Source of the DNA: Corallococcus macrosporus DSM 14697
Lineage (GTDB): Bacteria; Myxococcota; Myxococcia; Myxococcales; Myxococcaceae
Direction: 5' to 3'
Length of the DNA: 64,000 bases
Assembly: GCF_002305895.1 (NCBI RefSeq)
Contig: NZ_CP022203.1
Coordinates: 4,132,501 to 4,196,500, forward strand
In this document: positions 21,329 to 26,067 of the stretch, one piece after another
How the letters are laid out: each line of letters opens with the position of its first letter
Position numbering within the stretch: the first letter of the stretch is position 1
Position numbers and translations under genes: made by a program
The notes under the pieces: model-generated
Databases searched by the model: none
The model's input: the letters and a program-made list of their open reading frames with translations, nothing else
What the model was told of the DNA's origin: nothing

Positions 21329-22954
21329 ATGGCGCCGGAGTCCGTTGATGTCATCATCGTGGGTTGTGGTCCGGTGGGCGCCATGGCGGCGAACCTCCTG
21401 GGGCAGCAGGGGATTCGGACCCTGGTGGTGGAGCGGGAAGTCACACCCCACGGCCAGTCCCGCGCCATCAGCGTGGACGACGAAGGCCAGCGCATCTTCC
21501 AGTCCGCGGGGCTGGTGGGGGATTCGGGCGCGGGCTTCTACCCGTGCAAGCGGCTCCAGTACCTGGATGACGCGTTGCGCTCGCTGGCGGAGGTGGACTT
21601 CACCCGGCTGGACCGCCCGTTCGGCTACGTGCCGGCGGCCTTCTTCCAGCAGCCGCGCATGGAGTCGGCGCTGCGCGAGGGCCTGAAGCGCTTCCCCCAC
21701 GTGGACCTGTGGCTGGGCCACGAGGTGGAGTCCTTCGTCCAGGACGAGGACGGCGTCACGGCCCGCGTGAAGGAGGTCGCTGGGGAGCGGGCGGTCAACG
21801 TGCGCGCGCGCTTCCTGCTCGCGTGTGACGGCTCGCACAGCTCCATCCGGCGGCGGCTGGGCCTGAAGCTGGATGGGACGACGGCGCTGGAGCACTCGCT
21901 GGCCATCACCGTGAAGACGGCCTCTGCGGAGCCGGACTTCACCAGCTACCTGTGCGGCCCGGTGCGCCGGGGCTTCATCGCGCGCACCGCGCCGGACGAG
22001 ATTCGCTTCGACATCATCCTGGAGCCGGCCGCGGACCTGAAGGCGGCGCGCTCGGACGAAAACGTGCGGCGGCTGATTGGCTACTACCTGGACCCGGCCT
22101 CGGTGGAGCTCGAGTCCGTGAAGATCTTCTCGTACCACAGCCGCATGTCGGAGCAGTGGCGGGTGGGGCGGGTGTTCCTCCTGGGGGACGCGGCGCACCT
22201 GATGCCGCCCTTCCTGGGCCAGGGGCTGTGCGCGGGCCTGCGGGACGCGGCGAACCTGACGTGGAAGCTGGCGCTGGTGCTCGAGGGCGCGGCGGACCCG
22301 TCCCTGCTCGACTCCTACGAGGAGGAGCGGCGCGGCCACGTGTCGGAGGTGATTCGCGGCTCGGACGCCATGGGCCGGGTGATGATGTCGGGCGGACGGG
22401 TGATGGCCCGCGCGCGCAACGCGCTCATCCAGGTGCTCTACCGGCTGCCGGTGGCCGGTGACTTCATCCGCGACTACAAGGTGAAGCCGGAGATGCCCCT
22501 GCGCCGGGGCTTCATGCAGGGCGCCCGGCGGGAGAAGGGCGACGTGCCAGAAGGCTCCTACTTCCCGCAGCCGCGCGTGGAGCGGCCCGACGGGCAGGCG
22601 GCGCTGCTGGATGACTGCCTGGGGGAGGGCTTCGTGGTGCTGACGCGCCCCGGCGCCTCCCAGGAGGCCCAGCGCGAGGCGCGGGCCCTGTCGGACGAGC
22701 TGGGGGCGCGGTGGTGGCGCGTGGCCGCCGCGGACCGCGCGGAGACGGGCGGGCCGGACGCGCTGGTGGACCTGGACGGACGGCTGGGGGCCTGGTTCGC
22801 GCGGTACGCGGCCGACCTCGTGGTGCTCCGGCCGGACCGCTACGTGTTCGGCATCGCGGGAGGCGGCACGCGGGGCCACCTCCTGGGCTCGCTCAAGGGC
22901 CGCGTCCGGCCTCCCTCGCGCCAGAAGGGCGGGGAGGTGCGGCGGGCGGGCTGA
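21329..22954 (+). CDS. FAD-dependent aromatic-ring monooxygenase (MhpA/PheA-like)
   Basis: 541 residues, class A flavoprotein monooxygenase. Rossmann motif VGCGPVGAMAANLLGQQG (about 11-28), the conserved DG motif in LLACDGSHSSIRRRLG, and the second FAD motif VFLLGDAAHLMPPFLGQG with a following NLTWKL helix. About 130 residues after the flavin core resemble the thioredoxin-like C-terminal domain of phenol/3-HPP hydroxylases, without clear cysteines. It hydroxylates an aromatic or quinone-like ring with NAD(P)H and O2; the substrate is unknown. It follows the men operon after a 700-base gap and does not appear co-transcribed. No ring-cleavage genes are nearby, so a catabolic role is not supported. 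Confidence 0.85.
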   Translation: MAPESVDVIIVGCGPVGAMAANLLGQQGIRTLVVEREVTPHGQSRAISVDDEGQRIFQSAGLVGDSGAGFYPCKRLQYLDDALRSLAEVDFTRLDRPFGYVPAAFFQQPRMESALREGLKRFPHVDLWLGHEVESFVQDEDGVTARVKEVAGERAVNVRARFLLACDGSHSSIRRRLGLKLDGTTALEHSLAITVKTASAEPDFTSYLCGPVRRGFIARTAPDEIRFDIILEPAADLKAARSDENVRRLIGYYLDPASVELESVKIFSYHSRMSEQWRVGRVFLLGDAAHLMPPFLGQGLCAGLRDAANLTWKLALVLEGAADPSLLDSYEEERRGHVSEVIRGSDAMGRVMMSGGRVMARARNALIQVLYRLPVAGDFIRDYKVKPEMPLRRGFMQGARREKGDVPEGSYFPQPRVERPDGQAALLDDCLGEGFVVLTRPGASQEAQREARALSDELGARWWRVAAADRAETGGPDALVDLDGRLGAWFARYAADLVVLRPDRYVFGIAGGGTRGHLLGSLKGRVRPPSRQKGGEVRRAG

Positions 22955-23015: not shown

Positions 23016-23768
23016 TCAGGCCGCCGCGGCGGACTGGACCAGCTTCCCGGCGCGCTCCACGCAGTCGCCCATGAAGCGCAGGTAGATGTCGAGCGCGCTG
23101 GCGCCCGTCTTGGCGATGATGGGCGCCTTGTCCGGCACCTGGGCGAGGAGCTTGTTGAGCATCACCTCGTTGAGCGCGGTGTGCCCGACGTCAATCTCCG
23201 TGTGCTCCTTGAGGAAGGACATGCCCTGGAGGATCTCCTCGCCACAGACCTTCTTGGCCTGCTCCAGGATCACCGGCCCGAGAATCGTCGACAGGCCCTC
23301 GATTTCGTACTCGATGGCCACCTGGGCGGCGGGCATCTCACCGGTGATGGTGTTCTCGTGGATCTCCCGGTACTCCTTCATGGCCTGCGTGGGCGGCTGC
23401 GCGATGAGCTCCTCGGCGTTCAGCTTGGGGCTGCGGCGCTCGTTCCAGCGGGCCACCAGGTGCTTGGTGTCCTCGACCATCATCAGGTGGTGGCCGGCCT
23501 CGTGCTTGGCGTGGGCGATGAGCTTCTGGCCCACGTCGTCCAGGCCCACCTTGACGGTGGCCTCACCGGCGCGGCGAATCCAGCCGTCCACCGGCTCCGT
23601 CATGTAGACGCCCAGCGAGTTCCAGGTGATGAGGAAGGCCTCGAACAGCGCCGGGTCCGCCTTGTCGTCCAGCAGCGCCTTCAGCCGCGGGTCCGTCTTG
23701 ATGCGCTCACGGGTGGCGGTCAGGTTCGGTGTGTACAGCTCCTCCACGAGTTGCTTGCTCATGTTCAT
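23016..23768 (-). CDS. Heme-oxygenase-like diiron (HDO) redox protein
   Basis: 250 residues, all-helical, of the TenA/heme-oxygenase-like iron-containing redox group. Metal-ligand-like segments appear in the expected order: HAKHEAGHHLMMVED (86-100), EYEIEG (153-158) and HTEIDVGHT (189-197), with Glu/His spacing as in diiron oxygenases or oxidases of this fold. Members include UndA, CADD and SznF-type enzymes; the substrate here is unknown. The ATG at 23768 overlaps the upstream TAA as TAATG, so it is translationally coupled to the PilZ gene; an alternative ATG at 23762 is close. Cytoplasmic, with no signal peptide. Confidence 0.75.
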   Translation of the reverse strand: MNMSKQLVEELYTPNLTATRERIKTDPRLKALLDDKADPALFEAFLITWNSLGVYMTEPVDGWIRRAGEATVKVGLDDVGQKLIAHAKHEAGHHLMMVEDTKHLVARWNERRSPKLNAEELIAQPPTQAMKEYREIHENTITGEMPAAQVAIEYEIEGLSTILGPVILEQAKKVCGEEILQGMSFLKEHTEIDVGHTALNEVMLNKLLAQVPDKAPIIAKTGASALDIYLRFMGDCVERAGKLVQSAAAA

Positions 23769-25918
23769 TACCCCTGGCGAGAGTTGGGAGCGCTTCGGCG
23801 CCCGATGGAGACTTCACTGATGTGTTCGAGATAGTCAGGGATCAGCTTCGCGGAGATGATCCACATGTACGGGTCCGGACCTGCGTGAATCCCGGCTTCC
23901 TGTACGTACTGCCCACCGTCGTCCTCACAGATGTAGTGGAACGAGCGGCGGTGGCGGGCGGCGTACCAGCGGCGTGCCGCATCCACCAGGGCGACGTAGG
24001 TGGACGGCCCCGCGTCGCTCAGGGGGAACAGCCGTGCCATGTCGAGCAGGCTGTAGAGGTTGGTGCCTTGCTGGCCCAGCTCCAGGACGGCGGCGGCCAG
24101 GGCCACGCCGTTGCGGCGCGCGACGAGGACCTCGCGCTCGCGCTCCAGGCCAAAGGTGTTCCACTGTCCCTGCACGGCGCGCATGTCGATGCGGTCGCGC
24201 GTGAAGTCGAGCGCCTCCACGTAGCAGGAGGGGCGCGAGCTGGCGAGGTGGTCCGTCAGCAGCGTCAGCTCGGCGGACGTGGCGGGGCTGATGGTGATGC
24301 CCTCGTGCAGCCGGCCCGTCATCTCGTCCGTGTAGACGTCCATCATGTGGACCTTGCGCGTGAAGCACAGCTCCGGGTTCGCCGCCATGTGGCGCTCGCC
24401 GTAGCGGACGTGCGCGCGCGAGATCCACGGGTTGAGGCCCTCCACGTAGGCCACGGCCCAGCGGAAGTCGGGGTCGCTCTGCGGGTGCTCGAAGCAGCGC
24501 ACGTACAGGTCGTGCATGATGCGGCCCGGCTCCAGCCCCTTGATGGCGGGCTTGCCCGGGCGCTTGGCCACCTGATGCCCCATCCAGGTGTGCCGGTACG
24601 TCTTCATGATGGACAGCGTCGCCTCGGGGCCGCGCTCGGAGGGCCAGACGGCCTGGCAGAAGAGCTGCGGGACCTCCGCGGCGCGCCTGGCCATGTGGCT
24701 GAAGGCTTGCTTCAGCGCGTCGAATTCCTGAGAGGACTTGTTCGCCAGGCTGAAAAAGCCAGACAGCGTGAAGACATCCCAGAGCCCCTCTTCCTGCAGG
24801 TCGCTGGTGCAGGTGTTGGGATTGGTCGTCTGGGAGACGAAGCGCACCCAGCGCGCCTCGTCGGAGGAGTAGGGCGACACGCTCAGGCCGCACAGCACGG
24901 TGCCGTCGGCGCGCGCGCTGGTGACGTAGCGGATTTCACCGCGCAGGCGGATGGCCTGCCCGTCCGCCGTGTGCAGCTCGAGCAGGGGCGGCAGCAGGCC
25001 CGGGAAGAGCAGGTCCTCCGGGCGGCAGCGGATGCACAGGCCGGAGAAGGACAGGTCCACCACCGCGCGCTCCACCTCGCCCAGCTCGCGCCACAGCGGG
25101 TGGTGGAAGGAGACGCGCACGCCGTCCGGCGCGGGCGTGCGGCGGTGCCAGCGGTGACGGATGCGGAAGAGCACGTCGGGCAGCGGCGTGGTGAAGCGCT
25201 GCCCCTCCACCGTCCCCGAGTCCAGGCGCATGCGGTACGCGCTGTTGTGGCCGATGACGTCGATGTCGTAGGGCGCCTCGCCCCAGTCGGACACCGGGTC
25301 CTCCGCGTGCCACTCCAGCTTCTCCGTCTCCGCGTCGTAGCGCTCCAGCACCAGGCGCACCGTGCGGCCCATGCGGCGCAGCACGCCCTTGTTGCCCGCG
25401 GTGCTGATGGCCACGAGGATGGCGCGGATGCGCTCCACCTCGTCGATGGTGTCCTGCACCGGAAGGGCAGACGCGGCGGGCTCCGCCACGCCACGCTTCA
25501 GCGCATCCGCCAGCAGTGCGAGGATTTGACGGCCCTGCTCCAGCGACACGCTCACCAACTGCAGCCCCACCGGGGACAGCGCCGTCTCGGCGTCCGTGCG
25601 GATGAAGGCGCCCCGGATGGGGCCCAGCGTCACGCCGCAGCCGGACAGGTAGACGGGCAGGTTGCGGGACTCGGAGGTGTCCACCTCTCCCTGGGGCATC
25701 ACCCACACCACGGTGGGGCTCAGCCGCGTCACCACGCCAATGGCGTTGTCCGGAGTGCCCACGGAGCAGGTGATGGCGTCCGCGCCCGCCCCGTGCAGGG
25801 AGTAGCCCGAATCGTCCAGCGCCGCCTCGGCGGGCGGAAGCGGAATCACGTTGAACAGCGCGTCACGACTGCGGAACTCGACCGACCGACGGTCGGAGAG
25901 CGGGTTTCCCCCTTCCAT
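23768..25918 (-). CDS. PilZ-domain (c-di-GMP) protein with C-terminal acyltransferase-like domain
   Basis: 716 residues. A PilZ domain lies at about 250-360: RWHRR (256-260) supplies RxxxR and DLSFSG (288-293) supplies DxSxxG, both c-di-GMP contact motifs, preceded by a YcgR-N-like beta region (about 165-250). The first 150 residues hold another beta-rich module. The C-terminal 300 residues look like a GNAT/N-acyl-transferase fold (a REVLVARRNGVALAAAVLE strand-helix near 590 and a YICEDDGG segment near 675), which is inferred from pattern only. The start at 25918 is chosen because the promoter -10 covers the upstream ATG at 26044; AGAAGGGGG precedes 25918. Coupled to the diiron gene below. 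Confidence 0.75.
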   Translation of the reverse strand: MEGGNPLSDRRSVEFRSRDALFNVIPLPPAEAALDDSGYSLHGAGADAITCSVGTPDNAIGVVTRLSPTVVWVMPQGEVDTSESRNLPVYLSGCGVTLGPIRGAFIRTDAETALSPVGLQLVSVSLEQGRQILALLADALKRGVAEPAASALPVQDTIDEVERIRAILVAISTAGNKGVLRRMGRTVRLVLERYDAETEKLEWHAEDPVSDWGEAPYDIDVIGHNSAYRMRLDSGTVEGQRFTTPLPDVLFRIRHRWHRRTPAPDGVRVSFHHPLWRELGEVERAVVDLSFSGLCIRCRPEDLLFPGLLPPLLELHTADGQAIRLRGEIRYVTSARADGTVLCGLSVSPYSSDEARWVRFVSQTTNPNTCTSDLQEEGLWDVFTLSGFFSLANKSSQEFDALKQAFSHMARRAAEVPQLFCQAVWPSERGPEATLSIMKTYRHTWMGHQVAKRPGKPAIKGLEPGRIMHDLYVRCFEHPQSDPDFRWAVAYVEGLNPWISRAHVRYGERHMAANPELCFTRKVHMMDVYTDEMTGRLHEGITISPATSAELTLLTDHLASSRPSCYVEALDFTRDRIDMRAVQGQWNTFGLEREREVLVARRNGVALAAAVLELGQQGTNLYSLLDMARLFPLSDAGPSTYVALVDAARRWYAARHRRSFHYICEDDGGQYVQEAGIHAGPDPYMWIISAKLIPDYLEHISEVSIGRRSAPNSRQG

Positions 25919-26039
25919 GATCAGGCGCCCCCTTCTCCGGTGCTGAGGAACCCCTGATGCAGTCGTCGAAATTGCAAGCACGGTTGTTCCTCCCTGCTCC
26001 AGCGGTGCTGCGTTAGGCGGCGAATCGCTATAGGTCCGC

Positions 26040-26067
26040 ATCATACGGATTTCCGAGGAACAGTCAA
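26040..26067 (-). promoter_or_regulatory. Strong sigma70-type promoter of the PilZ-diiron operon
   Basis: On the minus strand TTGACT (26067-26062), 16 bases, TATGAT (26045-26040): five of six matches in both boxes. Transcription should begin near 26033. The ATG at 26044 overlaps the -10 and so cannot be the translation start. Confidence 0.7.

Follow-up and report, generated by a model that had tools for sequence, protein, structure and literature searches.

We examined a 64,000-nucleotide stretch of DNA from Corallococcus macrosporus DSM 14697 (the window; G000:C1:4132501-4196500 of an 8.97-Mb myxobacterial genome) and describe here two coupled genes on its minus strand, which are flanked on one side by a small, conserved gene upstream of icd and on the other by a convergent gene for an FAD monooxygenase. 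The first encodes what we call the partner protein, in which a predicted receptor for cyclic di-GMP (c-di-GMP) is fused to a tandem acyltransferase of the GNAT fold; the second encodes a heme-oxygenase-like dimetal (HDO) protein. The features are as follows.

23016..23768, minus strand: HDO gene (heme-oxygenase-like dimetal protein, 250 amino acids [aa]), from the structure model, Foldseek matches, and conserved ligands
23768..25981, minus strand: PilZ-acyltransferase gene (partner protein) with probable GTG start, 737 aa, from a conserved ggagg and in-frame codons in 10 genomes; pair conserved
24812..25462, minus strand: YcgR_N plus PilZ module, residues 153-369, from the fold model and near-invariant motifs
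23843..24649, minus strand: tandem GNAT region, residues 424-692, from Foldseek and VIA Z scores
23766..23770, minus strand: TAATG stop/start overlap of the two genes, read from the sequence
26040..26067, minus strand: promoter-like site TTGACT-16-TATGAT, from consensus match and conservation

Residue numbers of the partner protein refer to its 716-aa form. An initial annotation, made from the letters of the window, had proposed a 716-residue protein coupled through TAATG to an HDO protein behind a strong promoter. Both open reading frames and the overlap are where it placed them, but the start at ATG 25918 is probably wrong. The partner protein more likely begins at GTG 25981, because the ggagg site ahead of that codon is kept in 10 of 10 aligned genomes and the codons from 25981 to 25918 stay in frame through indels. 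The longest possible form (ATG 26044, 758 aa) has its start codon within the −10 box. The proposed promoter held up well: it agrees with the consensus at 10 of 12 positions, against a chance expectation of 0.2 sites for the region, and its −35 region (TTTGACTGTT) is unchanged in all 10 aligned genomes.

Predicted folds of the two proteins

Single-protein and profile searches of PDB sequences returned weak or chance matches only, so comparison of folds was needed. The model of the HDO protein, built from a 34-sequence alignment, is all helical, with a predicted local distance difference test score (pLDDT) of 94.3. Its best Foldseek match was the uncharacterized protein 3dde (5.8e-6; VIA Z score, 23.2), and UndA (7.4e-4; Z, 19.5) and CADD (9.2e-4; Z, 20.1) were also matched, in line with the diiron fold that the initial annotation had assigned. 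Heme oxygenases and TenA likewise superpose on the model, as the fold predicts (Z of 18 to 19 for TenA). Identity to any solved member of the superfamily is below 20%, and the Pfam Haem_oxygenas_2 score falls under its cut-off.

Among the 34 HDO sequences, which range from myxobacteria to cyanobacteria and actinobacteria, E90, H93, E155, H189, D193 are invariant and H196 is near-invariant. H189-x3-D193-x2-H196 aligned with the CADD ligands H174/D178/H181, and the ExxH motif (E90, H93) corresponds to E86/H89 of MboA. The third carboxylate is E155 or E153; a weak hidden Markov model (HMM) alignment puts CADD E142 two residues further on. The six conserved residues would form a plausible 3-His/3-carboxylate dimetal set, the ligand motif that, according to a 2026 review, is most frequent among HDO proteins (PMC13108848). 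Second pairs in one myxobacterial genus (L049:5723-6481, L051, and L053:6320-7084) encode an HDO protein without most of the metal-ligand residues, probably a pseudoenzyme retained beside an intact acyltransferase.

The partner protein was modeled at pLDDT 75.7. Residues 153 to 369 form a complete YcgR_N plus PilZ module, with VIA Z scores of 14.7 to MrkH (5kec), 13.8 to YcgR (5y6f), and 13.4 to PP4397 (3kyf). On MrkH and YcgR, the root mean square deviation is 6 to 7 Å across both domains and 2.3 to 3.2 Å for single domains (Z, 13), and the structures matched by this arrangement are c-di-GMP bound. The PilZ motifs R256xxxR260 and D288xS290xxG293 are intact, as initially reported, and near-invariant among first-copy proteins in a 25-sequence alignment. 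Pfam PilZ scores were borderline (19.8 bits for the protein as given and 22.4 to 22.8 in a whole-genome search; cut-off, 22.5), so the fold model settles the PilZ assignment. Based on motifs and fold, we infer that the partner is a YcgR-type c-di-GMP receptor. The C-terminal region, annotated at first as acyltransferase-like, was modeled as a tandem GNAT (residues ∼424 to 692), with Foldseek matches to VipF (6e-6) and the clavulanate tandem GNAT (1.5e-5) and VIA Z scores of 12.1 for VipF, 11.4 for 3tt2, and 9 to 10 for FemX/MprF.

Inheritance in Myxococcota and GNAT partners in other phyla

The HDO gene was found in 59 and the acyltransferase gene in 67 of the 147 genomes of the class, and the pair is strictly conserved in Cystobacterineae. 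The HDO gene is immediately preceded by an acyltransferase gene or its remnant at all 41 named Cystobacterineae loci; the acyltransferase gene is intact at 39, split by a frameshift at one (L095), and truncated at one (L099). The locus is syntenic at 22 Myxococcus, Pyxidicoccus, Corallococcus, and Citreicoccus loci, and distances among HDO proteins track those among acyltransferases (r = 0.92, reached by 0 of 2,000 permutations). Another Myxococcota family also holds a pair (L153), and no HDO relatives were found on plasmids.

The same genome carries a second pair (L035:8545-10424), duplicated as a unit, in which the genes overlap as ATGA and the acyltransferase has lost its PilZ part. That part is wholly or mostly missing from the second-copy pairs at L035, L043, L047, L097, and L101, all of which keep both enzymes. 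A third paralogue (L036:7037-9157) combines PilZ and acyltransferase without an HDO gene and occurs even in genomes that lack HDO. In Corallococcus sp. CA053C (L099:7828-7995), the second-copy HDO gene is intact and its partner is reduced to the last 56 codons, and in one close relative with a 9.3-Mb genome (G118:C1:7824141-7824281), only a ∼47-residue fragment of the second-copy HDO protein is left.

When 84,980 species were scanned with the HDO alignment, the same clade (∼38 to 46% identity) was recovered in seven other groups. Outside Myxococcota, it again adjoins or is fused to a GNAT of one of several types unrelated in sequence. In Nostoc and Symploca, a GNAT gene precedes the HDO gene, and in Acidimicrobiia, a FeeM-type GNAT gene follows it (E values of 2e-18, 8e-21, and 2.5e-12). 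Neighbors of the Acetyltransf_5 type were found in an acidobacterium, a Pseudonocardia, and another cyanobacterium. Rhodoblastus and the alphaproteobacterium UBA7314 encode single-chain HDO-GNAT fusions (L119:7908-9413 and L117:7959-9377). GNATs make up about one gene in a hundred; therefore, chance adjacency across so many lineages is not credible. A Nannocystis gene downstream of HDO looked GNAT-like by eye, matched no family, and was not counted.

The Nostoc genes form a five-gene run of DAHP (3-deoxy-D-arabino-heptulosonate 7-phosphate) synthase, Anabaena-type phenylalanine ammonia-lyase, coenzyme A (CoA) ligase, GNAT, and HDO, with a tyrosinase (L105 and L108) or an O-methyltransferase (L109) nearby; in Symploca, a tryptophan-halogenase-like flavoenzyme (L106) and a DAHP synthase come after HDO (Nostoc/Symploca loci L111:2482-8732, L105, L106, L108, L109, and L113). 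This run has the look of a natural-product cluster and likely specifies a phenylpropanoid-amide pathway, which would give the Anabaena-type ammonia-lyase family a natural context.

The predicted c-di-GMP receptor is a Myxococcota addition to the GNAT-HDO pair, lost in some second copies. At a single locus, in an Acidimicrobiia metagenome-assembled genome (L112:7977-11289), a GAF-GGDEF-EAL gene follows HDO and the FeeM-type GNAT on the same strand, possibly an independent link to c-di-GMP. The Rhodoblastus fusion gene lies directly downstream of a gene pair for an ATP-binding cassette exporter of the MacB/FtsX type.

Proposed function and its alternatives

We favor, with modest confidence, a biosynthetic role in which the two enzymes together produce a small molecule (or lipid) that is acylated and oxidized, because the HDO clade adjoins or is fused to unrelated GNATs elsewhere, including in the Nostoc/Symploca cluster. 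The strict coupling and joint inheritance of the genes, the metal-ligand pattern, and the c-di-GMP motifs also speak for it. We propose the following for its catalysis, reaction order, substrate, and gating. The tandem GNAT would acylate an amine or amino acid, taking the acyl group from a thioester or possibly from an aminoacyl-tRNA. The HDO protein would then use O2 at an Fe2 or Mn/Fe center to oxidize what the GNAT has acylated, through a reaction such as decarboxylation, desaturation, or C-C cleavage. Depending on cell state, binding of c-di-GMP by the fused YcgR-type module may turn the acyltransferase, and with it the pathway, on or off. The initial annotation had ventured a c-di-GMP-controlled biosynthetic pair. 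Neither of the findings that it named as contrary to this idea was obtained, as the pair is conserved and the HDO protein keeps a plausible set of metal ligands. The GNAT partners and fusions and the cyanobacterial cluster support the biosynthetic half; the control half draws on motifs and fold, and some second copies have no PilZ part.

More tentatively, HDO-GNAT may be a general partnership across phyla that acylates an amine or amino acid and then oxidizes it, by chemistry new to HDO proteins; myxobacteria would have added direct second-messenger control through the fused receptor, which would restrict production of a secreted signal or lipid to one lifestyle state. Only about a dozen HDO proteins have known reactions, and recent additions have brought unexpected chemistry (PMC13108848). 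This clade carries a built-in clue to its substrate in the form of the GNAT partner and, in cyanobacteria, the phenylalanine ammonia-lyase/CoA ligase cluster with its tailoring genes. If the proposal is true, a single protein would directly connect c-di-GMP with a product of metabolism in predatory, fruiting bacteria.

Several observations count against this biosynthetic interpretation. The myxobacterial pair has no substrate gene beside it. The first GNAT half was modeled poorly (pLDDT of <50 at residues 415 to 467), and by eye the alignment shows no obvious Q/RxxGxG/A acyl-CoA motif in the acyltransferase; the expected strand-helix turn reads FPLSDAGPST (residues 631 to 640). Profile-profile comparison detected no sequence relation between the myxobacterial tandem GNAT and the Nostoc, FeeM-type, or Acetyltransf_5-type GNATs, and the tandem GNAT profile had no match in seven genomes carrying the distant HDO loci. 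We therefore do not call the partners homologous, and the parallel rests on fold and class of function. In other cyanobacteria, a more distantly related HDO subfamily belongs to a cluster that has no GNAT, so the partnership marks one clade and not the whole family; that conserved cluster (L154:1825-8017, L155, and L156) comprises MAPEG, ThiF/E1-like, tryptophanase/tyrosine-phenol-lyase-like, glutathione S-transferase, and WbuX-like PP-loop amidotransferase genes. Finally, PixB, a remote homologue of the partner protein, is a regulator.

PixB underlies the main rival, which we consider unlikely: a regulatory acyltransferase would control motility or development through c-di-GMP-responsive protein acylation, with the HDO protein as a metabolic or oxygen-sensing accessory or possibly the acylation target. 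PixB (MXAN_2604) of Myxococcus xanthus is a c-di-GMP-binding regulator of motility and development with a PilZ-PilZ-GNAT architecture (Kuzmich 2021, PMC8316039). It shares with the partner protein the bacterial group, the role of c-di-GMP effector, which is predicted for the partner protein, and the order of a PilZ part followed by a GNAT acyltransferase, and the two are homologous over both parts (hhalign probability, 97.4; E, 1e-11; 430 columns; HMM E, 3e-11). In contrast, PixB has a receiver-like N terminus (judged from its translation), lacks the serine of the second PilZ motif, and has no coupled HDO gene at its probable locus in this genome, L126. Where a PixB-like second PilZ domain might be sought, the model of the partner protein has an additional domain, rich in strands and closed by a helix (residues 39 to 141), for which sequence searches of Pfam and the PDB gave no match. 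We also rejected the possibility that the partner gene is itself pixB, which by position and architecture is probably L126:2497-5094, upstream of a hybrid histidine kinase gene. The third paralogue, which does without HDO, fits either a regulatory or a biosynthetic role. We prefer the biosynthetic role because the HDO clade keeps its GNAT partners, even as fusions, in phyla where this PilZ family does not exist. The duplication of the pair as a unit also speaks against a PixB-like regulator, as does the finding that the HDO proteins characterized so far act on fatty acids or amino acids and in most cases serve to make small molecules (PMC13108848).

A biosynthetic pair whose PilZ part is no c-di-GMP switch in the cell, serving instead for scaffolding or dimerization or having lost binding, seems to us quite improbable. 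The second-copy pairs that dispense with this part and the borderline Pfam scores speak for such a reading; set against them are the near-invariance of RxxxR and DxSxxG in first-copy proteins, the match of the whole modeled YcgR_N-PilZ arrangement to c-di-GMP-bound structures, and the binding of c-di-GMP by PixB. A metal-free, TenA/PqqC-like protein with no oxidase activity and an incidental coupling, as the good superposition of TenA and the low Haem_oxygenas_2 score might suggest, is very hard to reconcile with metal-ligand residues whose positions rank with the best conserved across phyla, with 3dde, CADD, and UndA as nearest structures, and with strict pairing and covariation with the acyltransferase.

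Known systems and the M. xanthus locus

The acyltransferase-plus-oxidation pair we favor has parts with precedents. HfsK of Caulobacter crescentus is a FemX-like tandem GNAT and c-di-GMP effector (PMC5362036) under direct c-di-GMP control, as proposed for the partner protein; in contrast to that protein, it needs no PilZ module to bind c-di-GMP, presumably acts on holdfast polysaccharide, and has no HDO. The HDO protein shares its fold and 3-His/3-carboxylate pattern with UndA, CADD, MboA, and HrmI (PMC13108848) but has low identity to solved members and belongs to its own clade, marked by GNAT partners. N-Acyl amino acid synthases of the FeeM and Acetyltransf_5 (OlsB-like) types resemble the system as HDO partners or fusion partners in other phyla, and the myxobacterial tandem GNAT shows no relation to them in sequence. 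No paper linking an HDO protein with a GNAT or PilZ protein was found in the open-access literature (subscription papers lay outside the search). The coupling to HDO is new on this search, and the initial annotation also knew of no such pair; the PilZ-GNAT fusion is already known from PixB, and c-di-GMP control of GNATs is known from PixB and HfsK.

The M. xanthus orthologues should lie near MXAN_3534-3536, because icd is MXAN_3537 (PMC2875238). We found no open-access papers on MXAN_3532-3536, and a published list of 24 PilZ gene deletions in M. xanthus has no tag between 2902 and 3585; the partner gene and the stand-alone paralogue thus appear to be absent from that series. Deletion of the locus is feasible in M. 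xanthus, which makes the question directly testable.

In the window, the convergent neighbor (21329-22954) is an aromatic-hydroxylase-type FAD monooxygenase (PF01494; E, 3e-68). It adjoins the pair at all Myxococcus/Corallococcus loci, where it is syntenic together with men and tricarboxylic acid cycle genes. We count all of these genes as neighbors and not as parts of the system, because they are absent around the Archangium and second-copy pairs.

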